A stretch of 40,537 bases of DNA from Sulfuriferula sp. (GTDB lineage Bacteria > Pseudomonadota > Gammaproteobacteria > Burkholderiales > Sulfuriferulaceae), in contig JABFSE010000034.1 of assembly GCA_013140765.1 (NCBI GenBank), forward strand, positions 1 to 40,537, in the 5' to 3' direction. The notes under the pieces are model-generated. The model made no database searches, had not been told where the DNA came from, and worked only from the letters and a program-made list of their open reading frames with translations. The first letter of the stretch is position 1; each line of letters starts with the position of its first letter. Position numbers and translations under genes: made by a program. This document shows positions 6,255 to 39,076 of the stretch, in pieces.

Positions 6255-6285
6255 TCAGGCATTTATTTGGTAAATAAACGCCTGA
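6255..6285. terminator. Long hairpin overlapping the end of the convergent gene
   Basis: TCAGGC-A-TTTATTT and AAATAAA-C-GCCTGA form a 14-bp stem with one A/C mismatch and a GGT loop. It covers the stop codon of the membrane-protein gene ending at 6263. With the hairpin at 6221 it separates the convergent yicC and minus-strand island transcripts. No classic T-tract. Confidence 0.4.
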
Positions 6286-6724
6286 AGTCCACACCATGTC
6301 GGCGTAGATAAAACTGATATACCAGCCCCGCAGCGACGGCGACGCTGACTTCGAGATTAAGGAATATCGCCATCCAGCTTTTCCAGAAGCTCACATTAGA
6401 AAAAGCGGTGCTTTTGCTGGAACCATCGACAAACTCAACTTTGCAACATCCTGTTGTACAATTCCTAACACCACTGGCGTGGTGGTTTCTGCTGACAGAG
6501 GTGCTGTAATCAACGCTGGCAACGGGTTTGTTAAGCGTTTGCGCCCAGCCCTCACAACTGGGCTGAAACCAGAAAGACACTAATCCTAAGTGCATTACAA
6601 CGACCAAAACAGCGACTAAGCCTAATCCACGCAACCAAACGCCGAGCTTGCTACGACCATCAGCGGTCGCAAACCTGGCTTGGAGTTCAGCGATTTTGTC
6701 GAGATTTGGCGGCTGATTATCCAT
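6263..6724 (-). CDS. Two-TM membrane protein of unknown function
   Basis: A 153-residue protein, not recognised. A soluble N-terminus (about 1-28) is followed by a hydrophobic helix (about 30-50, GLGLVAVLVVVMHLGLVSFW), an extracytoplasmic region of about 65 residues with four Cys (CEGW, then CTTGCCKVEF), and a second helix (about 117-137) ending in a basic tail. The Cys cluster between two membrane helices could be disulfide-bonded or bind metal; this is inference. It starts 2 bp after the DUF3617 gene stop, so it belongs to the 7562-6263 operon. Confidence 0.7.
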   Translation of the reverse strand: MDNQPPNLDKIAELQARFATADGRSKLGVWLRGLGLVAVLVVVMHLGLVSFWFQPSCEGWAQTLNKPVASVDYSTSVSRNHHASGVRNCTTGCCKVEFVDGSSKSTAFSNVSFWKSWMAIFLNLEVSVAVAAGLVYQFYLRRHGVDFRRLFTK

Positions 6725-6726
6725 GG

Positions 6727-7278
6727 CTAGTGCTTATGCTTGGCAGATTGTTGTGCTTGTTTGATGAGGTCGTCAAAGTTGACGGTTTGACCATTTCCCA
6801 GTGTCACACCTTCTGATTTAGCATTGGCTTTGCAATCACCGATACGGGTGCTGGTGTTGACCATATCGCCCATCACTTTATTGCCCATTTTCATGGGTTG
6901 GCCATTCACGGTGCTGCGGGCAACAGACTTGATGCTGTTGGCATTCAATTGTGTTACTTCTGTGTGGGTTTTGATGACACCGCTGGTTTTGTCGTTGCAG
7001 ACGCTATCGCTGATATAAGTATTGCCCTGTTTTTGATAAGTGGTTTTGCAATTAGCTTGTTTTTCATAATCAGCGGCTGCTTTTTCACTTTCAGCAATGG
7101 TGGCTGCATCCATACACTGACGTATGCTTTTAACCTTGCCGTCATTGTTAAATCCAGACGACTGCGTTTCCCACAGACCAGGTTTGATTTTAGGGTAATC
7201 AGCAGGAACGGCGGCGACTGCGTTGAGTGCGAATACGCTTAATGCCAGGCTGAGTGCGGTTAATGTATGGCCTTTCAT
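6727..7278 (-). CDS. DUF3617-family periplasmic protein
   Basis: A 183-residue protein from the ATG at 7278, which has GGAG 7 bases upstream and overlaps the previous stop (ATGA). A signal peptide (MKGHTLTALSLALSVFALNAVAA) ends near residue 23. DUF3617 hallmarks follow: IKPGLWET, a first Cys in QCMDAAT, NCKTTYQKQGNTY, and a final IGDC. The open frame extends to 7350, but that part is poorly protein-like and runs through the preceding gene. DUF3617 proteins have no established function. At least three related proteins lie in this island. Confidence 0.8.
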   Translation of the reverse strand: MKGHTLTALSLALSVFALNAVAAVPADYPKIKPGLWETQSSGFNNDGKVKSIRQCMDAATIAESEKAAADYEKQANCKTTYQKQGNTYISDSVCNDKTSGVIKTHTEVTQLNANSIKSVARSTVNGQPMKMGNKVMGDMVNTSTRIGDCKANAKSEGVTLGNGQTVNFDDLIKQAQQSAKHKH

Positions 7279-7562
7279 GGTTTTGCTCCTTGCGTTTTCA
7301 TATTGATGTTTTTTGTCGGGGTGCGTGGCGTACTCATCTTTGCCGCGCAACTGCCTGCGCCACAGCCACCATCTACCTGTTTTTTGATTTTTAACTGCTG
7401 GATTTTGGCGCGTTCGCCACCCTCGGCTGACGTGCTGGCAGGTTGGCTAACAAAGGGATTGGTATCCGCTTCAGTAGATTGTGCGGTTGCGGCGGCAATC
7501 AGGCTGATAGCAAATATGCCTATCATCGCACGCGGAATCGCATCCTGTTGTTCTTGATTCAT
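7275..7562 (-). CDS. Small exported or membrane-anchored protein with a CGAGSC motif
   Basis: A 95-residue protein, not recognised. A hydrophobic segment (about 12-28, AMIGIFAISLIAAATA) serves as signal or anchor. A Ser/Thr-rich linker, a basic segment (AKIQQLKIKKQ) and the two-Cys motif GGCGAGSCAAK at about 66-76 follow. The ATG at 7562 has GAGAGG 9 bases upstream; a TTG at 7571 abuts that site and is less likely. First gene of a three-gene minus-strand operon. The Cys pair resembles small metal- or redox-binding peptides only superficially. Confidence 0.6.
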   Translation of the reverse strand: MNQEQQDAIPRAMIGIFAISLIAAATAQSTEADTNPFVSQPASTSAEGGERAKIQQLKIKKQVDGGCGAGSCAAKMSTPRTPTKNINMKTQGAKP

Positions 7563-7645
7563 AGTGAGCAACCTCTCTGGTATCTTTTTGGATGTGCTTA
7601 TATTAGTTTATTTTGTCCATGGTGTGTGTGCAGGTGATGCAAACT

Positions 7646-7662
7646 CCCCCAACTATGGGGGG
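7646..7662. promoter_or_regulatory. G/C dyad 1 in the divergent promoter gap
   Basis: CCCCC-AACTAT-GGGGGG lies in the 176-bp gap between the minus-strand operon starting at 7562 and the plus-strand operon starting at 7739. It matches two other dyads at 13299 and 15919. Read in the direction of the plus-strand operon it has the same orientation as the others relative to their genes. No convincing -10 is seen at the spacing found for the other two. Confidence 0.6.
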
Positions 7663-7738
7663 AAGTGGTTGCTATGCGGCTAGTTTGGTATTTTTTTGGG
7701 TTAGCATGAGCGTGCTTAATTGAATAGGACTGGGCAGT

Positions 7739-8293
7739 ATGAAGCGTTTGGTACAAATAGCATGGTTGTTGGCATTCAGCGTTTTTTTAGGTGGATGCGA
7801 GACCTTGAGCAAATCGGAATGCGCGGTGGCGGATTGGCGCGGGCTGGGTGTGCAAGATGGTTTGCAAGGTCGCGTCGATACAGCGGCAGATTATTATGAA
7901 TCGTGCACCAAGCATGGCTACAGCGTCGATGTGAATAGCTACCGCGCTGGGCGGCAAGAGGGTTTGCGGCAGTATTGTCGTTATGACAATGCGGTGCGTG
8001 TTGGGCTGGCGGGCAAATCGTATCTGGGCGTGTGTGCGCCGAATATCGACGTGGATTTCCGACGCTTGCAATCAGCAGGCTATCGCGTGTATGAGGCAGA
8101 ACGCCGTTTGGATAAGCTAAAAGCTGAACAACGCGGGTTAGAGCGTGACTTGAGCGATAAAGAAACGCCACCTGCGCAAAAACCGAAGATACGCAGTCGC
8201 TTAGCGCAATTAGACGGTGAATTAAACGATGCGCGAGATGAGTTGGGCTATGCGCGGAGTAAGTTGGATAGGTTGTGGGATAGTTATCGTTAA
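7739..8293 (+). CDS. DUF2799-family lipoprotein
   Basis: A 184-residue lipoprotein. Its signal peptide has the lipobox LGGC with the lipidated Cys at residue 20. The DUF2799 pattern follows: ECAVADWRGLGVQDGLQG, YYESCTKHGYSVDVNSYRAGRQEGLRQYC, and a GKSYLGVCAP segment. The last 60 residues (RVYEAERRLDKLKAEQRGLERDL...) are predicted coiled coil. It heads a five-gene plus-strand operon (7739-11164) with gaps of 6-16 bp. The function of DUF2799 is unknown; outer membrane anchoring is inferred because there is no Asp at +2. Confidence 0.8.
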   Translation: MKRLVQIAWLLAFSVFLGGCETLSKSECAVADWRGLGVQDGLQGRVDTAADYYESCTKHGYSVDVNSYRAGRQEGLRQYCRYDNAVRVGLAGKSYLGVCAPNIDVDFRRLQSAGYRVYEAERRLDKLKAEQRGLERDLSDKETPPAQKPKIRSRLAQLDGELNDARDELGYARSKLDRLWDSYR

Positions 8294-8309
8294 TTGTTAA
8301 GGAGTTGTG

Positions 8310-8684
8310 ATGAAACATAGTTTGATTTTGTTGAGTTTGTTAATGGCAAGTGAAGTGGCGTTGGCAGATGGTCCGCCACCGCCACCACCGCCCGCGCCTG
8401 CGCCAGTGGCAGTAGATGATTCTGTCGGTGTGGGTGGTCCTGGTGTGATGTTGGGGCTGGTGTATAACTTTGGTGGCAATGTGGGCATACAGTTGAATTT
8501 GATGTCTAGTCGCCGTCAGGATAATGGCGTGGTTGCCGCTGGGGTGGCGTATTACCCTAAATCAGCCAATTGGGGCTTGAGTTTGGGCGGTGGCTACAAC
8601 ATGCGTAACAGCACCGCGCTGGTCGGCTGGGATTTCCTCAATCGCACACCGCAAGTGAGCTTTGGCTATTCGGACACTAAATAA
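8310..8684 (+). CDS. Small secreted or outer-membrane protein with a poly-Pro linker
   Basis: A 124-residue protein, not recognised. A signal peptide ends near VALA-DG, followed by a run of seven Pro and APAPVAVDD. The rest alternates small and aromatic residues (GLVYNFGGNVGIQLNLMSS, WGLSLGGGYNM, PQVSFGYSDTK) in a way typical of beta-barrel strands, though only about six strands fit. The ATG at 8310 has AAGGAG 5 bases upstream; an in-frame GTG directly precedes it. Second gene of the operon. Confidence 0.65.
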   Translation: MKHSLILLSLLMASEVALADGPPPPPPPAPAPVAVDDSVGVGGPGVMLGLVYNFGGNVGIQLNLMSSRRQDNGVVAAGVAYYPKSANWGLSLGGGYNMRNSTALVGWDFLNRTPQVSFGYSDTK

Positions 8685-8690
8685 GGAGAG

Positions 8691-9635
8691 ATGGTGAATT
8701 GGGCTAAACAGACTATTATCGCATCCTTGCTGACTGCGTCGCTCGCTGCTGTAGCGGCAGAGCCTGGTAAGGATGTGAGCTATGTCGGGCGTTACGACGG
8801 CGCAAAGATGGAGCTATATAAACAATCTGACTTTGATGAAGTGCGTTTATTAAATCGACCGTTGGATACACGTGGGGGCTTGAGCTCGGCTAATAGCCTG
8901 ACCTTGCAAGGCAAATCCACACGCATTCGTTACGTCGGACCCGCTGGGCGTTCAGCATTGGAAGTCGCAAAAAATTACGAGGCGGGTTTGCAGGCGCAAG
9001 GCTTTGAGGTGTTGTTTAGCTGTGCCTTAGCGCAATGTCTGGCAGATAAAGGTACGGGCTACTATCAGTTCGGCGGCACGATTGATAGCGCGACCAAAAA
9101 TGCAAGTTATCAAAAGGGCTTGCGTTATGAATTAGCGCGGTTACGTCAGCCTAGCGGTGACGTGTATGTGGCGATTACGGTTGGTGAATGGACGGAGCCC
9201 GCGGCACTGGTACAAGTGGTTGAGACCAAGGCGATGGATACCGATAAGCTGGTTTTCCTGGATGCTTCGGCGATGGCAAAAGCCATTGATAAAGACGGGC
9301 GTGTATCGCTATACGGTATTTTATTTGATACCGATAAAGCTGATATCAAAGCCGAATCCAAGCCTACTTTGGCTGAAATTGCAAAATTCATGCAAGCCTA
9401 TCCTAGTGTCAATCTGGTGGTCACAGGGCATACCGATAACCAAGGCAACTTTGATCACAACGTCGATTTATCGCGCCGTCGTGCCGCCGCTGTGGTTGCC
9501 GCTTTGACTGGGCAGTATGGGATTGCATCGGCACGCTTAATCCCTTTTGGCGCGGGCATGGCAGCCCCTGTGGCAAGCAATGCGGCAGAGGCGACACGGA
9601 GAAAAAATCGTCGGGTTGAATTAGTGAAACGTTAA
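8691..9635 (+). CDS. OmpA-family protein with DUF4892-like N-terminus
   Basis: A 314-residue exported protein. The signal peptide ends near AVAAEPG. Residues about 25-190 resemble DUF4892 (YDGAKMELYKQSDF, RIRYVGPAGRSALEVAKNYEAGL, FEVLFSCALAQC). The C-terminal OmpA/MotB domain (about 205-314) has VVTGHTDNQGNFDHN and LSRRRAAAV, with RKNRRVEL at the end, and is expected to bind peptidoglycan. AAGGAG ends only 2 bases before the ATG; a GTG at 8694 (spacing 5) may be the true start. Third gene of the operon. Confidence 0.85.
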   Translation: MVNWAKQTIIASLLTASLAAVAAEPGKDVSYVGRYDGAKMELYKQSDFDEVRLLNRPLDTRGGLSSANSLTLQGKSTRIRYVGPAGRSALEVAKNYEAGLQAQGFEVLFSCALAQCLADKGTGYYQFGGTIDSATKNASYQKGLRYELARLRQPSGDVYVAITVGEWTEPAALVQVVETKAMDTDKLVFLDASAMAKAIDKDGRVSLYGILFDTDKADIKAESKPTLAEIAKFMQAYPSVNLVVTGHTDNQGNFDHNVDLSRRRAAAVVAALTGQYGIASARLIPFGAGMAAPVASNAAEATRRKNRRVELVKR

Positions 9636-9646
9636 GGAGGTAGGTC

Positions 9647-10105
9647 ATGAGCAAATTAGTCGGGTTGATGTTAGTTGCGGTATTGGGGTTGTCTGGCTGC
9701 GCGGGTGGTTTGGGCAGTTCGGATTACAGCCGTGGTCAGGCACGCGCAGGTCAAAACGTAGAAGAAGGCGTAGTGACCAAAGTACGAGTGGTTAAAATTG
9801 AAGGCACTAAAACCCCTATCGGCGCAGGTGCAGGTGGCGCGGTGGGTGGTATTTTGGGTAGCAAAGCTGGGAATGGCACAGGTAGCATCGTCGGCGGCAT
9901 CCTCGGTGGTGTCGCTGGCGGCGTGGCAGGCGCAGGCGCAGAAGAAGTCGTGACGCATCAAAAAGGGCTGGAAATCACGGTGAAACTTGCCAGTGGCCGC
10001 AAAATCGCCGTGACCCAAGCGGCAGATGAAGAGTTCAAAGTGGGCGATAAAGTCGCTGTTTTAGTGGATGGTAGTGGAACTACCCGTGTTACGCACGACG
10101 ATTAG
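9647..10105 (+). CDS. SlyB/Pcp-like glycine-zipper outer-membrane lipoprotein
   Basis: A 152-residue lipoprotein with lipobox LSGC (Cys at residue 18). A Gly/Ala-rich glycine-zipper stretch at about 58-97 (GAGAGGAVGGILGSK, then GGILGGVAGGVAGAGAEE) is followed by a small beta domain (LEITVKLASGRKIAVTQ...VGDKVAVLV). This layout is that of SlyB/Pcp lipoproteins, which are outer-membrane associated and stress responsive in enterobacteria. A strong GGAGG site precedes the ATG. Fourth gene of the exported-protein operon. It is more divergent than housekeeping SlyB, so no symbol is given. Confidence 0.8.
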   Translation: MSKLVGLMLVAVLGLSGCAGGLGSSDYSRGQARAGQNVEEGVVTKVRVVKIEGTKTPIGAGAGGAVGGILGSKAGNGTGSIVGGILGGVAGGVAGAGAEEVVTHQKGLEITVKLASGRKIAVTQAADEEFKVGDKVAVLVDGSGTTRVTHDD

Positions 10106-10114
10106 GGGGAAAAT

Positions 10115-11164
10115 ATGCAAAAAACGTTAAGTGTCATCATCGCTGGATTGGTTTGTAATGTGGCGTATGCCGCGCCAGACGCGCAAAAAGACTGCAAATC
10201 ACCGTATCAATACTTTAGAAAAGCCACCGCAACCGATTATGCTTGCGTGACATCGGAGCGTCCAGCGCAGGTGATAGCAGAAAACACTAATCCAGTAGGC
10301 ACGACACGTATTTTTGGCAATTGTATTTCAGGTTATGTTGAGCGTGGCGTCGATAGCAACGATAAGATCTGTGTGACACAGGCCTCTCATACCCAAGTGT
10401 TAGCAGAAAACGCGGACCAGCCGAATCGTGTCGCCAGCACTGCGCCGTCAGGTGGCGGCACGCCTGCGGGCACGGGTACAGGTGGTCGCCTCCCACCGCT
10501 GGGTAGCGTGCCCGATGGCGTGAAACTTCCGCCAGGCGTTGTTAAACCTGTGGGGCTAGGTAATAACCATCGCATCCCCTCTGTTGGCAAGCTCGTCGAT
10601 AGCGCGAAACCAGATTTATCAGGGTTGATGAAAACGAAAACAGTAACGATTACTGCCGATCAGATTCCAGCCAAAGCGGTTAAATGCGCACAGGTGGATG
10701 GCGCGGATAATCGCGGACCTAGCGTGTTGGTGACGGGGACGGCCATGTTGTGTTTTGCGTATAAGCTCGGAGATAGCGAAATTATCAAACATGACTACAC
10801 CGATACGGTTGATTTGAGCTTTATCAATCCGCATTTCAAGATTTTGCCTATGGGGATTAAGTACATGGTTGCCCGACAAGGCGAGCACAAGGCAAACGGG
10901 GAGTTTCGCTTAATTGATGCGCCTTTTGATAAATCGCTGTATGAAAATAAGAGCAAAGATCAATGGGGTGCAAATGGCGGGGTTTATATTTATGGTAATG
11001 CCAACATGGTGGTGAGCACGAATGCGCTGACGTTGACGCATCCTATGTGGCAGAACCATACTTCGCCTAGCTGGGGTAGTAAGCACAGCAATGAGTTCGT
11101 CACAGGCAGCAGCATCACCATCACAGTAGAAGGTCCTGCTAACGAAGACCCGATTAAGCGTTGA
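10115..11164 (+). CDS. Secreted protein with two Cys-repeat units and a novel C-terminal domain
   Basis: A 349-residue protein with a signal peptide ending near YAA-PD. Two units of the island's short repeat occur at about residues 27-59 (CKSPYQYFRKA...DYACVTSE...ENTN) and 70-101 (CISGYVERG...DKICVTQ...ENAD), each with two Cys and an E-N near the end. A Gly/Pro-rich linker (about 105-160) leads to a C-terminal region of about 180 residues that is not recognised (FAYKLGDSEII, HDYTDTVDLSF, GGVYIYGNANMVV). Last gene of the operon; a strong terminator follows. It shares the repeat with the proteins at 11228 and 11930. Confidence 0.75.
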   Translation: MQKTLSVIIAGLVCNVAYAAPDAQKDCKSPYQYFRKATATDYACVTSERPAQVIAENTNPVGTTRIFGNCISGYVERGVDSNDKICVTQASHTQVLAENADQPNRVASTAPSGGGTPAGTGTGGRLPPLGSVPDGVKLPPGVVKPVGLGNNHRIPSVGKLVDSAKPDLSGLMKTKTVTITADQIPAKAVKCAQVDGADNRGPSVLVTGTAMLCFAYKLGDSEIIKHDYTDTVDLSFINPHFKILPMGIKYMVARQGEHKANGEFRLIDAPFDKSLYENKSKDQWGANGGVYIYGNANMVVSTNALTLTHPMWQNHTSPSWGSKHSNEFVTGSSITITVEGPANEDPIKR

Positions 11165-11180
11165 GTTGGTTGGGTCGATA

Positions 11181-11214
11181 AAAAGCCCGCTATTGAAAGA
11201 TAGCGGGCTTTTTT
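11181..11214. terminator. Bidirectional Rho-independent terminator
   Basis: AAAAAGCCCGCTA and TAGCGGGCTTTTTT form a perfect stem around a short loop (TTGAAAGA region), with A and T tracts on either side. It lies between the convergent plus-strand operon ending at 11164 and the minus-strand gene ending at 11228 and can serve both. Confidence 0.92.
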
Positions 11215-11227
11215 GCGTTGGATGTGT

Positions 11228-11887
11228 TTATGGACGCACTTTGTGGCTGGCGGCTTCGGCGTTTTCTTGCTTGGTGCGTTCGCGTATGTCGCCTGTGACG
11301 CAGACGTGGTCGCTAGGGATGGCTTCGCGCCAGACATAGCCCATGACACAGCTGTCGTTGTCGGATTTTGCGTGTGGGCTGGCCATGCGTGCTTGGCGTT
11401 GGGCGTTATCGGCTTTGGCTTGTTCGCGGCTGACGGGGGTGACGCAGACGTGGTCGTTAGGGTAGGCTTCGCGCCATACATAGCCTTGTTTGCAGGTGTC
11501 AGGACCGTATGGCAATGGTGCGCCGCCGATAGGGCGCGGTGATGGGTCTAGCGGGGTGCGTAATGCTGGCTTGCTGCCTACGCATTTTAATGAGGATATT
11601 TTGTCATTGCCTACTTGCGGGGCTATGCGCTCGATGTTGTCGGCAAAGAGAAGCTCTTCACCCTGGTAACCAGTTCTGTCCCACGCGTGCAATACTGAGC
11701 CGCCTGTGAGTACGACAGAGGATATTTTATTGTCAAAGCCCAGCGATAAAGTTGGCATTTCAGTGCCGTTGGCTAAATCCATGGATTTGCCTGTGTAGTC
11801 GGTATCGGTGTAAACGATGCAGTTAGCTTGTGCGCCAGTGAATGCGCTCAATGCGATAAGGGCTAAGGTGAGTTGCTTGATTTTCAT
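11228..11887 (-). CDS. Secreted beta-gamma-crystallin protein with two Cys-repeat units
   Basis: A 219-residue protein. Signal peptide 1-21 (ends GAQA-NC). Residues 23-102 form a double Greek-key beta-gamma-crystallin domain: YTDTDYTGKSMDL, DNKISS, HAWDRTGYQGEELLF and NDKISS. Both (N/D)(N/D)xxSS calcium-clamp motifs are intact, and Cys 23 and 102 bracket the domain. A Pro-rich linker is followed by two copies of the short repeat at about 132-161 (CKQGYVWREAYPNDHVCVTP) and 180-210. AAAGGA lies before the ATG. Tandem paralogue of the gene at 11930, sharing an identical 26-base start region. Confidence 0.82.
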   Translation of the reverse strand: MKIKQLTLALIALSAFTGAQANCIVYTDTDYTGKSMDLANGTEMPTLSLGFDNKISSVVLTGGSVLHAWDRTGYQGEELLFADNIERIAPQVGNDKISSLKCVGSKPALRTPLDPSPRPIGGAPLPYGPDTCKQGYVWREAYPNDHVCVTPVSREQAKADNAQRQARMASPHAKSDNDSCVMGYVWREAIPSDHVCVTGDIRERTKQENAEAASHKVRP

Positions 11888-11929
11888 GGTAGTTTCCTTT
11901 GGTGGTGGGTAAAAGTGGCTAGTTAAACA

Positions 11930-12721
11930 TTATTGCCAGCGTTCTGCGGCGTGGTTGTTGTCGTCTATCGCTTGCAGGTGGGCGGATTGCGACGCGCAGG
12001 TTTTGTCTATTTCTGCCGCCAATCGCCATACAAATATCGGGCTGGTGCAAGTGCCATCTGCTTTAGTCAACATGCGAGCAGCCTGATTTTCTTGCTGGGT
12101 TTGTGCTTGTATTGCAGGGGTGACGCAGACTTGGTCGCCGCCGTAGGCATTGCGTTTGACGTAGCCTGATTTGCATATCTGCTCCAGTGCTGTTCTATGT
12201 GGTGGGAGTAGTCTATCTATGGGTTTATCCCGTGCCTCATAGTCGTGATTCTCATTGGCGGTGTTGTTAGCGGGGGTGGTGCTCACAGGTGGGCGTGCGG
12301 CAATTTGTATGGGCTTGTCAAACTTCACGCGGGATGGTTTTTGGTACATGTCGGCTTCAGCGCGTGCGGGCGGGATGATTAATTCAACACTAGGGGCGCT
12401 GGCAACGGACATACATTTTAATGACGAAATGTCGTTTGCTTTATCAAGTTGCGGTGTGACTACGCCCGTATTTTGGCGGAAGGTGTAAGCCTTGCCTTGA
12501 TAGTTTGCGTGTTCCCATGCGTATAAGACGGAATCGCTACTGACTTTAATAGATGAGATTTTGTCGTTCCAGTCTTGAAACAGCTGTGGTAGTTCTGTGC
12601 CGTTGTGAATGATGGTGCGATAGCCGTTGTAATAGGCCTGGCTGTAAATCGTGCAATCTGCTTGTGCGCTGGTGATTGCGCCTGCGGTGCATAGGGTGAG
12701 AACGAATTGCTTGATTTTCAT
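11930..12721 (-). CDS. Secreted beta-gamma-crystallin protein with Cys-repeat units, paralogue
   Basis: A 263-residue protein built like its neighbour at 11228. Signal peptide to about residue 21, crystallin domain 23-103 (YSQAYYNGYRT, WNDKISSIKV, YAWEHANYQGKAYTF, ANDISSLKC), a longer linker (about 105-180) and two repeat units at 183-213 (CKSGYVKRNAYGGDQVCVTP) and 225-256, the second degenerate (CTSPIFVWRLA...DKTCASQ). The first calcium clamp is intact; the second has Ala for the first acidic/Asn position. The gap to the paralogue is 42 bp and to the DUF3617-like gene upstream 15 bp, so the three form one operon. Confidence 0.82.
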   Translation of the reverse strand: MKIKQFVLTLCTAGAITSAQADCTIYSQAYYNGYRTIIHNGTELPQLFQDWNDKISSIKVSSDSVLYAWEHANYQGKAYTFRQNTGVVTPQLDKANDISSLKCMSVASAPSVELIIPPARAEADMYQKPSRVKFDKPIQIAARPPVSTTPANNTANENHDYEARDKPIDRLLPPHRTALEQICKSGYVKRNAYGGDQVCVTPAIQAQTQQENQAARMLTKADGTCTSPIFVWRLAAEIDKTCASQSAHLQAIDDNNHAAERWQ

Positions 12722-12736
12722 GGTAGTTTCCTCGTG

Positions 12737-13243
12737 TTAATTAAACTGTTTACGGGTGCGGTCATAAATTTTGCCTGCGTCTGAGCGTGCGCAGGGTTGT
12801 AGCCATTGATGCAGGCTGGTTTCTTGGTTTTGGGCAGTGATTTTGCCCGCGTGATTTTTGGTGGTGAAGGTGTTAATCACTTTGTATGCGGTGACGGGGC
12901 CCGCGCCTGCGCGGATGGGCACGTAAACGGCATGGGTATGGGTGATGCTGGTGCGTGAGTTGCCCATGTCGTCTTCGCAATCTTGATCGGTGGTGATTTG
13001 GTCGCCGGGCATGGCGATATGTGTTTTGCCACAGCCTTCACCTTGCTCGCCTTGTTGTATGTCGCGCCAGAGGTCGGTAAAGGTTTCGCAAATAGCGATG
13101 TCACCTTTAGTGTCAACGCGCCCATTTTTATCAATTGCGCTATGTACCCAGATGCCCGCTTTGATGGGCATGGTGGGGGCGGTGTCACGTGCCAGCGCGG
13201 GGTAGGCGGTGGTGATGGCGATGAGTAAAAGTATGCGTTTCAT
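12737..13243 (-). CDS. DUF3617-like periplasmic protein
   Basis: A 168-residue protein with a signal peptide (MKRILLLIAITTAYPALA) and the DUF3617-type opening PIKAGIWVHSAIDKNGRVD. Cys in AICETFTD, EGCGKTHIAMPGDQITTDQDC and a final PCAR follow. It heads the operon 13243-11228 with both crystallin proteins. Similarity to the family is moderate and rests on the Cys spacing and the GxW opening. Function unknown. A -10-like TACAAT and a G/C dyad lie upstream. Confidence 0.7.
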   Translation of the reverse strand: MKRILLLIAITTAYPALARDTAPTMPIKAGIWVHSAIDKNGRVDTKGDIAICETFTDLWRDIQQGEQGEGCGKTHIAMPGDQITTDQDCEDDMGNSRTSITHTHAVYVPIRAGAGPVTAYKVINTFTTKNHAGKITAQNQETSLHQWLQPCARSDAGKIYDRTRKQFN

Positions 13244-13269
13244 GGTGCGGCTCCGTGTAATGATGCGTT

Positions 13270-13275
13270 ATTGTA
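13270..13275 (-). promoter_or_regulatory. Candidate -10 of the crystallin operon
   Basis: TACAAT reads on the minus strand from 13275 to 13270, giving a predicted transcription start at about 13263, 20 bases before the ATG at 13243. The centre of the G/C dyad at 13299-13314 lies 31 bp upstream of this hexamer, placing it near -43, a usual activator position overlapping a weak -35. Confidence 0.5.
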
Positions 13276-13298
13276 TGCGCTGGATAATTTGGTAATAG

Positions 13299-13314
13299 CC
13301 CCCTAGTTGGGGGG
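13299..13314. promoter_or_regulatory. G/C dyad 2 upstream of the crystallin operon
   Basis: CCCCC-TAGTT-GGGGGG on the plus strand, i.e. AACTA between the arms in the direction of the operon. It overlaps the last bases of the DUF3617-like gene ending at 13303. Same element as at 7646 and 15919. Confidence 0.6.
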
Positions 13315-13770
13315 ATTCGCTGGGCACGCGCCTTGCCATTTATCTTGGCTTATCCATTTTTTAACGCTGGTGCGTTTGGCTGTGCGTCGGGTGAATTTGC
13401 CCTCGCTACGGTAGGCGATGATGCGGTGTTGGCTGTCGTAAGCGGTGGGCGTATAGCGTTTGATGGTGCGCTCGTCTGCGTCTAGGTCAGTGCAGGTGAT
13501 GCTGGCGATGATGGTGTTGCCGTGCCGTTTAACGTGCGGCGAGTAGCAATCGTCGTAATTGTTGAATTCTTCATTCACCTGTTGCCATAAGTCGTGGTCG
13601 GTTGGTGCACTACGGCATTGGCTGTCACGGCTGTCGATAATTTCTCTGTTGTGAAGGTCATACACTTGATGTGACCACCAGCCTGTTTGCATCTGCATGT
13701 TGGGTTCGCTGGCGTGGGCTGTGCTGAAAAGGCTGACCAGCGTCATGATGGCTAGGCTGTATTTATTCAC
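13303..13770 (-). CDS. DUF3617-like periplasmic protein
   Basis: A 155-residue protein from a GTG at 13770 with GGGGAG 7 bases upstream; the stop of the previous gene overlaps by 8 bp. A signal peptide (VNKYSLAIMTLVSLFSTAHA) is followed by QMQTGWWSHQVYDLHNREI, which resembles the opening of the DUF3617-like proteins nearby, and by Cys at SQCRSAPTD, DDCYSPHVK, ITCTD and GACPAN. Third gene of the 15855-13303 operon. The coding end lies inside dyad 2. Confidence 0.6.
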   Translation of the reverse strand: MNKYSLAIMTLVSLFSTAHASEPNMQMQTGWWSHQVYDLHNREIIDSRDSQCRSAPTDHDLWQQVNEEFNNYDDCYSPHVKRHGNTIIASITCTDLDADERTIKRYTPTAYDSQHRIIAYRSEGKFTRRTAKRTSVKKWISQDKWQGACPANPPN

Positions 13771-14296
13771 CAATAATCTCCCCGCGCTGACCGACGCAAT
13801 TACCAATGCGTTCATAACGATAACGTTGCACTTCGGTTTGTTTGCGCCCTGCGATGCTGGTGATGACGGTAAGCTGATATTGCGTTAGTGCTGACGGCTG
13901 GGGGGCGGCAATGGCACTGTCTATGGTGCTGGTGTGGGTGACGGTTTTACTACCTTGGTGGCAAATCTCAGTGTAACCGACGCGCAGATAGCGTAGCTTG
14001 GACGTGGCTTTGAGCAGGGTCTGGGTGAATTTGACAGGCTCACAGCCTTCTTCACCTGAGGTGGCGCGTTCGTGCATAAAGGCTTGCCATTCGGTTTCTT
14101 TAACGCATACTTCTTCGGCGGTACTGTGAGGGTCATCCAGCGCGGTGATTTTCCATGCGCCTGCTTTCATTGGTACGGCGATGGTTAATGGACTGGCTAT
14201 ATTGGGCAATTTTTTTGGGTAACACCCACCTGGCAAAACCGCCTGTGCGCTGGTGTTCGTTAGTATGAGTGTGGCGATAATGAGTGCACGTTTCAT
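13763..14296 (-). CDS. DUF3617-like periplasmic protein
   Basis: A 177-residue protein from the ATG at 14296, which overlaps the previous stop as ATGA. A signal peptide (MKRALIIATLILTNTSAQA) precedes VPMKAGAWKITALDD, then EEVCVKETEWQAF, EEGCEPVKFTQ, TEICHQGSKT and a final GNCVGQ, the same Cys order as its neighbours. An in-frame GTG at 14305 is too close to the AAGG site. Second gene of the operon, coupled on both sides. Function unknown. Confidence 0.65.
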   Translation of the reverse strand: MKRALIIATLILTNTSAQAVLPGGCYPKKLPNIASPLTIAVPMKAGAWKITALDDPHSTAEEVCVKETEWQAFMHERATSGEEGCEPVKFTQTLLKATSKLRYLRVGYTEICHQGSKTVTHTSTIDSAIAAPQPSALTQYQLTVITSIAGRKQTEVQRYRYERIGNCVGQRGEIIGE

Positions 14297-15855
14297 AGTT
14301 GGCACGCCTTAGTGTTGGGGATGGTGATAACTTGTTCTTTGCTGAAAATTTCTTTAGAAAATAGCTCTTTAGGACCGACAAATGGCAACGGGCTGAAGTT
14401 GGTCGCCGCGCCAACATGGGCGGTGGATGACAGTGTGTAACGCGCACATTGCACAATAGAGCCGATAGCCGCCGTGTTGGTGATAGAGGCGACGCTGACA
14501 TGGTCGATGTAGCTCATGATATTGGCGTTGGTAAAGCCGATGCCAAAGCCGACTTTGGGCACCTGTACGCTCACTACCCAGCCTGATACCCCTGGGCTCA
14601 TGGCGGATTTGTCTTCTAGCTCAGGGTCGCCACTGCCGTCGCCGCTGTTGCTGATTTGCCCGTTGCTAAAGCTGGTTTCGCCATTGCCGCTGAAATTGAC
14701 TGTGCCTGAGGTGTGGAGCGCGGCATGTTTGCCGTTTAGCCCGATTTGGACGAGGAAATTAAAGCCGATTTGGGCGACAAAGGGCACGCCGTTGATAATA
14801 ATGGGGATGTTAAAAGTCACTGGTACGTCCATGACTTTGAAATTATGATGGAATGTGCCGTGTTCGTTGCCGAGGCGGGCAATGGCATTGAGACTGACCA
14901 TGCCGCTTAAGTCTTTGAAGTCGGTATTGAGTAGCTGTATTTTGGAATCAACGATGTTGATTTTGCTGCCGATTTTCATTGCGTCATTGCCCGAAATACC
15001 CGCCAAATGGCCGTTTGCTTTCAGGCGTATGTCTATGTCATCGTAACCTTTGCTGAACAGACCTTTGCTCAGGCTGGCGACGGAGTTGACAACTTCTAGC
15101 TCGCCGCTGTCTGCGGTTGCTTTGCCTGTGTCGCCTGCGCCATCGTTAGCCGATTTGCGTACTTCTAAATCAAAGTTGAGCTTGTCGCCATTGATAGCGT
15201 AAGCGACTTCATAGTCAAAATCGCCTGCTTTGCCTGTGTAGGTGTTCGATGGGGTAGGGTCAACTGGTGGCATGTCTGCTTCGTCGTCGCTGTTTGCGGG
15301 TAATTCAGGTGGCGCGTCGGCGTAAGCGGCGTTGATAAACAGGCTACTGGTTGGGTTGGTCACAGGTTTAGGCACGGCATGTGTGCCGATGTAGGCGTGT
15401 TTGAAATTGAGCGGGGTGTTGAATTGAATATCCGCGTCGGTCATGGCTTCGTTTAACGGCACGGCTTGGGTGTGAACCAGCGTGTAGTCGCCTTGTCTTT
15501 GCACGCTGACCACGCGGCGGATGGCGATACCCCAAATAAATAAAATTTTATGGGTACTGAGTTGTGCCAGTACGGGCGCGTTGTTGGCGAATAAGAAATC
15601 AGAGCCGCTACGGTTAATCGCAACTAGTGATTTGATAGCCGCATCACGGCTAACCGCTACTACATCGGGATGCCATTTCACCGCAAATTTAGTCGCGGGC
15701 GTTTCTTCTGCGTCGCGTAGGTAGCTTTGAATTTGGGCTGCTTTTATGCCGTTACTGGTAGATAGCAGGGTGGGTTGGGTGGATGAATGACTGCAAGCAG
15801 TAAGCCATAGCGCGGTCGTGATGGCAAGAGCGGATAAGCGTAAAGGTGTGCGCAT
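14293..15855 (-). CDS. Large lipoprotein of unknown function
   Basis: A 520-residue lipoprotein, not recognised. Lipobox LTAC with the lipidated Cys at residue 21. Residues about 40-150 form one mixed region, about 185-215 is an acidic Pro-rich linker (PPELPANSDDEADMPP), and from about 215 on the sequence is rich in short beta-type segments with many Asp/Asn/Gly (DFDYEVAYAINGDKLNFDLEVRKS, LKANGHLAGISGNDAMKIG), followed by two hydrophobic stretches (VTFNIPIIINGVPFVAQIGF). It suggests a beta-helix or sandwich fold, but that is inference. First gene of the operon down to 13303. Confidence 0.72.
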   Translation of the reverse strand: MRTPLRLSALAITTALWLTACSHSSTQPTLLSTSNGIKAAQIQSYLRDAEETPATKFAVKWHPDVVAVSRDAAIKSLVAINRSGSDFLFANNAPVLAQLSTHKILFIWGIAIRRVVSVQRQGDYTLVHTQAVPLNEAMTDADIQFNTPLNFKHAYIGTHAVPKPVTNPTSSLFINAAYADAPPELPANSDDEADMPPVDPTPSNTYTGKAGDFDYEVAYAINGDKLNFDLEVRKSANDGAGDTGKATADSGELEVVNSVASLSKGLFSKGYDDIDIRLKANGHLAGISGNDAMKIGSKINIVDSKIQLLNTDFKDLSGMVSLNAIARLGNEHGTFHHNFKVMDVPVTFNIPIIINGVPFVAQIGFNFLVQIGLNGKHAALHTSGTVNFSGNGETSFSNGQISNSGDGSGDPELEDKSAMSPGVSGWVVSVQVPKVGFGIGFTNANIMSYIDHVSVASITNTAAIGSIVQCARYTLSSTAHVGAATNFSPLPFVGPKELFSKEIFSKEQVITIPNTKACQL

Positions 15856-15889
15856 GAGTTTGGCTTTCGTTAAGCGTGGCTATGCTGGC

Positions 15890-15895
15890 ATTATA
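15890..15895 (-). promoter_or_regulatory. Candidate -10 of the lipoprotein operon
   Basis: A perfect TATAAT reads on the minus strand from 15895 to 15890; transcription would start at about 15883, 28 bases before the ATG (15855). The dyad centre at 15926 is 31 bp upstream of it, the same spacing as at 13270, and no good -35 hexamer is present. Confidence 0.55.
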
Positions 15896-15918
15896 GTGAG
15901 CAGCGGGCGAGCTAACCC

Positions 15919-15934
15919 CCCCCTAAGTTGGGGG
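15919..15934. promoter_or_regulatory. G/C dyad 3 upstream of the lipoprotein operon
   Basis: CCCCC-TAAGTT-GGGGG, with three further C on the left side (15916-15918). In the direction of the operon the spacer reads AACTTA. Third copy of the island's dyad. It also lies about 90 bp upstream of the plus-strand SemiSWEET gene. Confidence 0.6.
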
Positions 15935-16021
15935 TGTTTAGAGGGCGGCTGTTGATTAAACTGTGCGCATACCCAAGCCGCGCTACAGCGTGTATATTGC
16001 TAGTTTTTAGGGGGAATAGTG

Positions 16022-16288
16022 ATGGCGGCATTGGATATGTTAGGTTTTGTGGCGACGGCGTTTACGACTTCTTCGTTTATTCCGCAGGTGTGGACGACGT
16101 GGAAAACGAAAGATGTGAGTGGTATCTCGTTGCCGACTTATTTGATTATTACGGTGGGGCTATTTTTGTGGCTGTTGTATGGCATTTTTAAGCAGGATGC
16201 GCCGATTATCGTGGCTAATTCAGTCATGACGGTGTTGACCGCGACGATTACGGTGATGAAATTACGTTATGGGAAGTCGGCAAAATGA
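16022..16288 (+). CDS. SemiSWEET family sugar transporter
   Basis: An 88-residue protein with three hydrophobic helices and the PQ-loop motif SSFIPQVWTTWKTKDVSGIS at about residues 17-36, followed by LPTYLIITVGLFLWLLYGIF and VANSVMTVLTATITVMKL. This is the size and layout of bacterial SemiSWEETs, which dimerise to pass sugars across the inner membrane. The ATG at 16022 follows AGGGGGA by 6 bases; a GTG directly precedes it. The stop overlaps the GntR regulator start by 4 bp, implying joint expression. Confidence 0.85.
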   Translation: MAALDMLGFVATAFTTSSFIPQVWTTWKTKDVSGISLPTYLIITVGLFLWLLYGIFKQDAPIIVANSVMTVLTATITVMKLRYGKSAK

Positions 16289-18095: not shown

Positions 18096-19184
18096 ATGGT
18101 GAAAAAACATACTCGCAAGTGGGAGCGGCTTAAGTTATGGACGTGTGCGGGGTTGGATATGCCTGTGATCGCGCCTGAGGTATTGCGATTGCTTACCGAG
18201 ATTATTCCTGCGGATGCGGCGTTGCTATATTTAGATGCGACAGATGCGAATACGCCCCCATTTTTTTATCATACGGACAGCCCTGATGCGGTGAGGGCAC
18301 TATTTGCTAATGAGCCTCAGCTATTTCGCGGTGCGCATGATTATAATGTTGGGCATGTTATGCACGCGACTGGTTGGGCTAAGGCAGGGAATTTTTTAAC
18401 CATACCGCGTGCGTATTTTGCCAGTAATACTTATCAGCTATTAGTGCGCGCATCGGGGCATCATCACACCTTGGATGTGCGCCTAGAAGTCGGTGGTAAG
18501 CCTGTGGGTGCGCTGATGTTGTTTCGTGCATCGGGTCTGGCATTTGACGCAGATGATGTCGAGAATATCATGCGTGCGGCACGTTATGTGGAGCACGGTT
18601 TGTCACATTCTGCGCAAACGCAGGGTGATGTGTGGACGCAACGAGATGCGATGATAGTAGCCAGTGAGGATGGTCGTTTATTACATTTGAGCACGCAAGC
18701 GGCGGATTTGTTAAAGCAAATCAGTTTAATGGGCAGTGTAATGACTAGCTCGCAACATTTACCCCCCGTGATGCAGACATTGGTGCGGCAATTGCGTGTT
18801 TCACCTGTGCAGTCTGGTGCGTTACCTGAGCGACGTATTCCCGTCTATGGTGGCTATTTGCATTTACGTGCTTATTGGTTGAATGCCGTTGATGCGCAAG
18901 CAACACAGCGTATGGTTGGCTTTAGTATCAATAAAATTTATCCTAAGCAGGTCGCAATCATGTCGGTATTGTGCGATGCTGATTTAACCCCGCGTGAGGT
19001 CAGCATGGCGCAGTTGTTGATGCAGCATTATGCAGGCAGTGAGATTCGGGCACAGTTAGGTGTAAGCGAGGCGGTTTACCGTGATTGTGTGCGTGCGATT
19101 TATACCAAGCTAGGTATCAATAACCAACGTGATTTACATGGACGTGTGGGCGGCTTGGTAGAGGCGCGTATTATGGCGCATTAG
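18096..19184 (+). CDS. LuxR-type transcriptional regulator with GAF-like sensory region
   Basis: A 362-residue protein. The last 65 residues form a LuxR/FixJ-type helix-turn-helix: LTPREVSMAQLLMQHYAGSEIRAQLGVSEAVYRDCVRAIYTKLGI. The N-terminal 170 residues resemble a GAF-like fold (PADAALLYLDATD, DVRLEVGGKPVGALMLFR), followed by a PAS-like stretch (AMIVASEDGRLLHLS). No receiver domain or conserved Asp. AGGGAGCGA lies before the ATG. It could be an orphan ligand sensor. The stop overlaps the convergent gene at 19171 by 14 bp. Confidence 0.78.
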   Translation: MVKKHTRKWERLKLWTCAGLDMPVIAPEVLRLLTEIIPADAALLYLDATDANTPPFFYHTDSPDAVRALFANEPQLFRGAHDYNVGHVMHATGWAKAGNFLTIPRAYFASNTYQLLVRASGHHHTLDVRLEVGGKPVGALMLFRASGLAFDADDVENIMRAARYVEHGLSHSAQTQGDVWTQRDAMIVASEDGRLLHLSTQAADLLKQISLMGSVMTSSQHLPPVMQTLVRQLRVSPVQSGALPERRIPVYGGYLHLRAYWLNAVDAQATQRMVGFSINKIYPKQVAIMSVLCDADLTPREVSMAQLLMQHYAGSEIRAQLGVSEAVYRDCVRAIYTKLGINNQRDLHGRVGGLVEARIMAH

Positions 19185-38957: not shown

Positions 38958-38964
38958 GTCGTTC

Positions 38965-39033
38965 GGTTTGAGGAGCGTTGCGATGGGTTTATCCCGCCAG
39001 GCTCGAACCAGTCTTCACATCAACGGCGCTCAC
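38965..39033 (+). ncRNA. SAH riboswitch
   Basis: The S-adenosylhomocysteine riboswitch core is readable: GAGGAGCGTTGCGA, a short hairpin (GGGTTTATCCC), GCCAGGCTCG and ACGGCGCTCAC. P1 pairs GGTTTGAG (38965-38972) with CTCGAACC (39002-39009); the pseudoknot pairs GAGCG (38973-38977) with CGCTC (39027-39031). It lies 44 bases before the metK start. In this class SAH binding turns expression on. Usually it controls ahcY; here ahcY is the second gene after metK. Confidence 0.92.
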
Positions 39034-39076
39034 GTCTTACTTTTTGGTCAATTATTAACAGAAAGGCGTGGGAACC

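Follow-up and report, generated by a model that had tools for sequence, protein, structure and literature searches.

The stretch of DNA analysed here, called the window throughout, is a 40,537-nucleotide (nt) contig (JABFSE010000034.1) from Sulfuriferula sp. It contains three G/C-rich dyads next to the genes of an exported-protein island: dyad 1 at 7646..7661 on the plus strand (CCCCCAACTATGGGGG), dyad 2 at 13299..13314 on the minus strand (CCCCCCAACTAGGGGG), and dyad 3 at 15919..15934 on the minus strand (CCCCCAACTTAGGGGG, where the G run extends up to 8). A first-pass annotation made from the letters alone had reported dyads at 7646, 13299, and 15919 with an AACT-type spacer when read along their genes; the sequences were found at these positions, and re-reading gave the same spacer. 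Read on the gene strand, all three are C5-N6-G5 elements of 16 bp with AACT within the spacer and A as the first base that is not C. The minus strand of dyad 2 carries six C, so that it can be read as C5-CAACTA-G5, with the same 16-bp length as the other two.

Judging by gene order, each dyad appears to head its own transcription unit. Dyad 1 lies within a 167-bp gap between divergent open reading frames (ORFs) starting at 7571 (minus strand) and 7739 (plus strand). The unit after it (7739..11164, plus strand) encodes a DUF2799 lipoprotein-like protein, a small exported protein, an OmpA-domain protein, a glycine-zipper lipoprotein-like protein, and an exported protein of 349 amino acids (aa), while the divergent unit on its other side (6263..7571, minus strand) includes a DUF3617 exported protein. 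The start at 13243, about 55 bp on from dyad 2, opens a unit (11228..13243, minus strand) for a 168-aa exported protein and a related pair of exported proteins resembling beta/gamma-crystallins; read-through from upstream could also serve this unit. The start at 15855, about 63 bp on from dyad 3, opens a unit (13303..15855, minus strand) for a 520-aa lipoprotein-like orphan and exported proteins of 180 and 170 aa. The products of the four units mostly have signal-like N-termini, as judged by eye; the 170-aa protein is DUF3617-like below the Pfam cut-off, and several Pfam matches in the island fall below it.

The hexamers TACAAT (13270..13275, minus strand) and TATAAT (15890..15895, minus strand) begin 24 nt past the fourth G of dyads 2 and 3, respectively, which equals 23 nt past the 16-mer. 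As a -10 offset, this distance places the dyad centre near -43, in agreement with the first-pass annotation, which had paired the same two hexamers with dyads near -43; the transcription starts predicted from them are near 13263 and 15883 on the minus strand. A generic sigma-70 scan listed no promoter at the dyad places, and its total did not exceed that of shuffles (12 promoters versus 12.9). A short A-rich stretch was also seen directly 5' of the C run of all three dyads in the gene-strand reading (AAACT at 7641-7645, GAAT at 13315-13318, and AAACA at 15935-15939, for dyads 1, 2, and 3); it may extend the operator.

Within the window, the pattern C5-N4-8-G5 gave five overlapping matches at three places, compared with 0.06 expected, and five matches were reached in 0 of 100 shuffles; beyond the three dyads, the window has no further match. 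The 2.175-Mb genome contains the pattern at four places, three of them inside 8.3 kb of the window. The fourth (contig C37:938; L006 938-951) reads CCCCCACTGGGGGG, has no AACT spacer, and is preceded by an ORF fragment which we take to be transposase-like. The spacer form CCCCN{0,2}AACTN{1,3}GGGG was found genome-wide at three places, all in the island and all pointing along the downstream gene, with a reverse control of 0. Allowing up to two mismatches to CCCCCAACTNNGGGGG added only two weak places genome-wide (control, 12 rows). The tight pattern CCCCCAACTN{1,2}GGGGG, searched in 399 genomes of the order, occurred at three places in the genome of the window and once each in four others (reversed control, nine matches in nine genomes); the four foreign places had no common context, one being followed by a T run, two lying in long ORFs, and one lying 26 bp before an ORF. 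In the genome-wide search suggested by the first-pass annotation, the bare shape is no commoner than its reverse; the form with the AACT spacer is confined to the three island dyads.

These counts bear on the explanation that the dyads are unrelated G/C tracts arisen by chance, or functionless copies of a mobile repeat, for which the unremarkable genome-wide frequency of C5-N4-8-G5 and the scattered contexts of the four foreign places could be cited. However, the dyads are clustered and oriented, share little flanking sequence past about 6 bp, and have counterparts of the same kind beside homologs of a nearby regulator, which leaves this explanation with hardly any probability. Given the clustering, the orientation, and an AACT spacer with a control of 0, three oriented copies in 8.3 kb are not background. 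The dyads are real, and what is non-random in them is the clustering together with the common spacer.

The nearby regulator is encoded at 18096..19184 on the plus strand and is referred to below as 18096; the first-pass annotation had named this LuxR-type protein as one candidate. Its 362 aa comprise a GAF domain (Pfam, 23.8 bits; cut-off 22.4), a middle part that looks PAS-like, and a C-terminal LuxR-type helix-turn-helix (HTH). The structure model (predicted local distance difference test score 81, predicted template-modelling score 0.77) places the HTH helices at residues 299-309, 314-321, 325-339, and 344-361, the recognition helix (~325-339) including D330 and R333. When a profile of 27 family members was compared with known structures, GerE/NarL-type matches were obtained (best E 7.5e-8; NarL 3.1e-6), identifying the domain as a GerE-type HTH; taken alone, 18096 scored 20.2 bits with the Pfam GerE model, under its cut-off of 23.5, and the two clade relatives scanned gave no GerE match. 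The middle (~179-283) had no Pfam PAS match and only weak PAS rows in the fold search, and its PAS-like character is our reading of the model. Neither a Response_reg nor an autoinducer-binding domain was detected in the Pfam scan. The search for regulators in this genome covered the 18096 family, of which 18096 was the sole member found (profile E≤1e-15; own sequence E≤1e-6).

Within the genus, a single relative of 18096 was found at E≤1e-6, a 24% identical protein of Sulfuriferula multivorans TTN (G001). There, CCCCCTCATGAGGGGG separates the homolog gene from a divergent gene whose small product has a signal-like stretch, and TATATT is located 22 nt past the dyad, toward the divergent gene. 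A profile built from these two proteins gave 16 matches in 14 of the 399 genomes (E≤1e-15). In the six best non-own matches, which include G001, itself part of the profile, C5-N6-G5 was observed just upstream of the regulator gene; the nine weaker matches had no C5 dyad, and the reverse-order control was 0 in all 16 loci.

When the species-genome collection was scanned with six homologs, 56 loci were obtained, 47 of them with full-length homologs; the nine partial matches were left out. C5-N5/6-G5 was present within 500 bp upstream of 25 of the 47 (control 0), and C5-N5-7-G5 within 260 bp upstream likewise in 25 (reverse order 0/47), compared with 16 of 18800 random 270-nt windows from the same loci (0.09%). 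Counted by representatives, a C5 dyad lay upstream in 22 of 41, and elsewhere in the 56 loci (793 kb) there were six more C5-N5/6-G5 places. The best 16-mer within 260 bp had no mismatch in 25 homologs, one in 14, two in six, and three in two; for such inexact sites the only chance control is that of C4-N5-7-G4, found in 34 of 47 homologs versus 130 of 18800 random windows. The 45 loci with at most two mismatches were thinned for similarity to 33, among which TANNNT on the divergent side peaked at 22 nt (12 loci) and 23 nt (five), that is, in 17/33, a level reached by 0 of 2000 shifts. On the regulator side, a weaker -10 peak was seen (six loci at 21-22 nt; 7 of 2000 shifts).

Pfam examination of ten divergent-side products revealed DUF4148, multihaem-cytochrome-like, sensor kinase, and methyltransferase (below cut-off) matches and none for six, and many further products look exported by eye. 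In three Burkholderia loci (L083, L086, and L080) a small exported protein is encoded beyond the dyad, that of L083 being a DUF4148 protein. In four Rubrivivax relatives (L108, L109, L111, and L115) the dyad is flanked by the regulator gene on one side and, on the other, by a gene whose product, in the one scanned, is weakly methyltransferase-like; with such a neighbour, the targets would not all be exported proteins. In Caballeronia, Burkholderia, and Paraburkholderia loci (L075, L076, and L079, respectively) the dyad is degenerate and the divergent neighbour is a protein of 388-398 aa, possibly a paralogous regulator; the one scanned had no Pfam match.

Two of the 16 profile matches (L065 and L066) have an unusual recognition helix in common with 18096 (AVLRDCVKAVYEK versus AVYRDCVRAIYTK). 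Their genus yielded 30 matches in 29 of 62 genomes; one match (L159), which stops before the HTH, was left out, so that the nearest-clade set consists of 29 loci. In 26 of the 29 (control 0/29), an exact C4-N6-G4 lies no more than 200 nt past the regulator gene. In 23 of these 26 sites, a -10 hexamer begins 24 nt past the fourth G, the same offset as for dyads 2 and 3 of the window. The C run is followed directly by A in 21 of the 26 and in all three window dyads; among 39 sites of the other set, this base is T in 27 and A in two. A quick tree of 61 proteins placed 18096 as sister to this clade with a Shimodaira-Hasegawa-like approximate likelihood ratio support of 100. The positioning near -43 proposed in the first-pass annotation agrees with the offsets beside homologs (17/33 at 22-23 nt; 23/26 in the nearest clade), and its choice of 18096 as a candidate is supported by dyads upstream of 25/47 homologs and after the gene in 26/29 nearest-clade loci. 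The association of the family with the same kind of dyad at the same promoter offset is observed in other genomes.

Downstream of the regulator gene, a SodC-like ORF with an HVHE/HIHE motif starts within about 130 nt in 13 of the 30 loci and at 728-790 nt in two more; one such ORF matched Pfam Sod_Cu (E 1.8e-25). Among eight other nearest-clade loci, the next ORF has a signal-like N-terminus in five, and the remaining three have just a short ORF whose tail is PEP-CTERM-like; the LamG and PEP-CTERM labels on these neighbours are assumptions of ours. G409 encodes a second paralog that shares 34% identity with 18096 along its length; CCCCCTCCTGAAGGGGG, whose spacer has seven bases, lies about 75 bp upstream of the start of this gene. 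When the nearest clade was searched for across the class, 3 of 368 other genomes gave four matches, own matches not counted; no C5 dyad was present at these loci, and one of the four had C4-N6-G4 inside its own coding region. At the helix column of D330, two of them are Tyr-type, one is Asp-type, and one is unreadable.

The offsets also bear on the explanation that the dyads act as RNA hairpins in transcripts, as attenuators, terminators, or stability elements. Each dyad could form a stem of five G-C pairs, the upstream gene ends with its stop codon inside dyad 2, and just past dyad 1 there is a weak terminator-like stem with a T-rich tail (7666-7682, plus strand). Elsewhere, CTTTTT follows one tight-pattern foreign match (L031) and a looser C5-N6-G5 place in G001 (L007). 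Nevertheless, no T run follows any of the three window dyads and none is in the terminator list, so their identification as intrinsic terminators was rejected; the region has 11 terminator-like sites compared with 15.3 in shuffles and, being poorer in them than shuffles, may contain the stem at 7666-7682 by chance. A -10 at a fixed 22-24 nt past the dyad in homologous loci puts the dyad upstream of the transcription start, which argues against a hairpin, and we regard this explanation as very improbable.

When the recognition helices of family members from both whole-genome searches were compared (one match being unreadable), Asp at the D330 column was accompanied by C4-N5-7-G4 near the gene in eight of nine cases and Tyr in zero of nine (Fisher p 4e-4, kinship ignored). 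Two genomes each carry a Tyr paralog without a dyad and an Asp paralog with one. The D330 column presumably corresponds to NarL Val189, which we take to contact bases. Our hypothesis is that C/G arms would be well matched by an Asp accepting from cytosine in combination with Arg or Lys at the NarL-192 column.

The dyads might instead be operators of another regulator, either a LuxR/NarL-type protein or the GntR-type protein at 16285. The position of 18096, not adjacent to the dyads and without a dyad of its own, speaks for this; the GntR/UTRA protein begins 351 bp from dyad 3, and NarL itself is described as binding a C4/G4 palindrome, TACCCCTAAAGGGGTA (PMC4549865). Against it, the dyad elsewhere accompanies the 18096 family, and the nearest clade agrees with the window in the base that follows the C run and in the -10 offset. 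In the NarL site, moreover, C4 and G4 stand four apart with TA flanks, whereas the window dyads have them six apart and no TA, and the GntR gene lies beside PQ-loop and pfkB genes and looks like that of a sugar regulator. CsoR/RcnR-type metal repressors, whose operators are C/G tracts, were considered as well. With the search for regulators in this genome confined to the 18096 family, operation by a regulator other than 18096 is, in our estimation, unlikely.

Several observations weigh against 18096 as the partner of the dyads. The best matches to the dyad around its gene have five mismatches upstream and four downstream, the gene lies 2.2-10.4 kb from the dyads with three unrelated genes between, and most relatives examined do adjoin their dyad. 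Identity to the nearest relatives is only 31-35%, and the quick tree came with a warning of long branches meeting. The homolog sets partly overlap and are not independent: at least four loci of the 16-match set recur among the 56, and L065 and L066 are the same as L131 and L133. As to the helix, no dyad adjoins the gene of one Asp-type member (L165), the division into Asp and Tyr mostly separates a single clade from the rest, and the Asp column in the 56-locus set was partly selected by the search pattern. Other points concern the dyads themselves. At the shared offset dyad 1 lacks a -10; it has just TAGTTT (at 20) or TATTTT (at 28). The first-pass placement of the dyads solely in promoter gaps holds for dyad 1, in its 167-bp gap, but not for dyad 2, which overlaps the TAG stop and last codons of the gene at 13815-13303. 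Genome-wide, the bare C5-N4-8-G5 gave six rows versus 10 reverse-control rows per strand, overlapping rows counted; since the reversed form yields more rows, the shape by itself is not enriched. Finally, C5-AACT-G5 was absent for the other 17 genomes of the genus among the matches listed, and the 520-aa island protein had no match in the same 17 (E≤1e-8). Because the island was not found in relatives, there are no orthologous promoters to compare and no direct conservation of the three dyads.

Taking both sides together, we consider it probable that the dyads are operators of 18096, a little-studied, stand-alone LuxR-type activator predicted to bind near -43 in a one-locus regulon. The relatives adjoin the same kind of palindrome at the same promoter distance, which makes docking sites of 18096 the most likely role of the dyads; the link to this protein draws on the family association, the clade-specific details of the site, and its being the sole family member found in the genome. 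In the proposed mechanism, 18096 would sense a signal through its GAF and PAS-like domains, and a dimer would bind each 16-bp dyad via the C-terminal helix-turn-helix. From about -43, just upstream of -35, it would bring RNA polymerase to the promoters of the exported-protein units nearby, serving essentially this one locus. The sequence, rarity, orientation, and geometry of the dyads are read directly from the DNA; that there is binding, activation, and a signal, and that the partner here is 18096 and no other protein, is what we infer.

Beyond this locus, we lean toward the view that 18096 belongs to an undescribed family of GAF-PAS-LuxR activators, mainly from Burkholderiales in the present sample, with its own operator code: C4-5/G4-5 arms six apart near -43, edged by T/A in one set and by A/T in the other, with the helix Asp as a likely determinant of the C/G reading. 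Each member would be dedicated to a single nearby gene or a few, often encoding exported proteins, and the window, with the most sites seen here, would represent one local regulon of about four exported-protein units. Three odd palindromes thereby become a testable regulator-operator pair for a family barely recognised by Pfam, and the pairing of a helix Asp with C/G arms offers a simple rule for predicting the targets of other unassigned LuxR-type proteins. The theme suggested is that of a small sensor-activator adjoining the exported-protein genes it serves, and it gives a first handle on the control of an otherwise orphan exported-protein set in a Sulfuriferula relative.

In 398 genomes of the order the 520-aa protein had no match (E≤1e-6), and nothing was found for the OmpA-domain protein in the scan of the species-genome collection. 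The yicC side of the locus is conserved in relatives; beyond yicC, the window genes had no match in the stretches around yicC from three relatives, so that an empty site could not be drawn. At 11228-12721, the neighbouring beta/gamma-crystallin-like genes share direct repeats of 87 and 59 nt and near-identical start regions, which probably reflects a tandem duplication. Further along the window, an SAH riboswitch (Rfam RF01057, 62.2 bits; 38964-39038, plus strand) precedes the ORF at 39068.

In comparison with known systems, a LuxR-type activator at -43 is of a known general kind, and no description of this operator or subfamily was found in the literature searched, including searches with the exact motif strings. 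AHL-type LuxR proteins (acyl-homoserine lactone) resemble the window in dyad position and in the LuxR-type HTH, the lux box lying near -42.5 with a sequence unrelated to the window dyads; 18096 was rejected as a member of this type on the Pfam evidence, which gave it no autoinducer-binding domain. The best named model over most of 18096 is BagY/FevT (NF041232), with 26.3 bits (48.3 for the S. multivorans homolog), far under the curated cut-off of 700, and this identity was also rejected; the names come up in PMC6692506, which deals with the bagremycin/ferroverdin gene cluster.

PimM and CfaR of Streptomyces are, like 18096, stand-alone sensor-plus-LuxR proteins with a 16-bp palindrome, which is described as lying at the -35 box of a target promoter or immediately before it (PMC4380410). 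Their consensus, CTVGGGAWWTCCCBAG, has the G run first, whereas the window dyads have the C run first, and the passages of that source describing these proteins mention no GAF, in contrast to 18096. NarL and NarP of Escherichia coli parallel the arrangement proposed for the window, a GerE-type HTH dimer on a C4/G4 palindrome. They differ in the 7-2-7 site (TACCCCTAAAGGGGTA), where C4 and G4 are four apart with TA flanks, compared with six apart in the window and in 26/29 nearest-clade loci. NarL has a receiver domain, whereas 18096 has a GAF domain and no Response_reg by Pfam, and the recognition-helix residues of NarL presumably differ from those of 18096. In position the two systems come close: some NarL 7-2-7 sites are reported just upstream of the start region, at -40 to -49 for napF and -38 to -47 for yeaR (PMC4549865).

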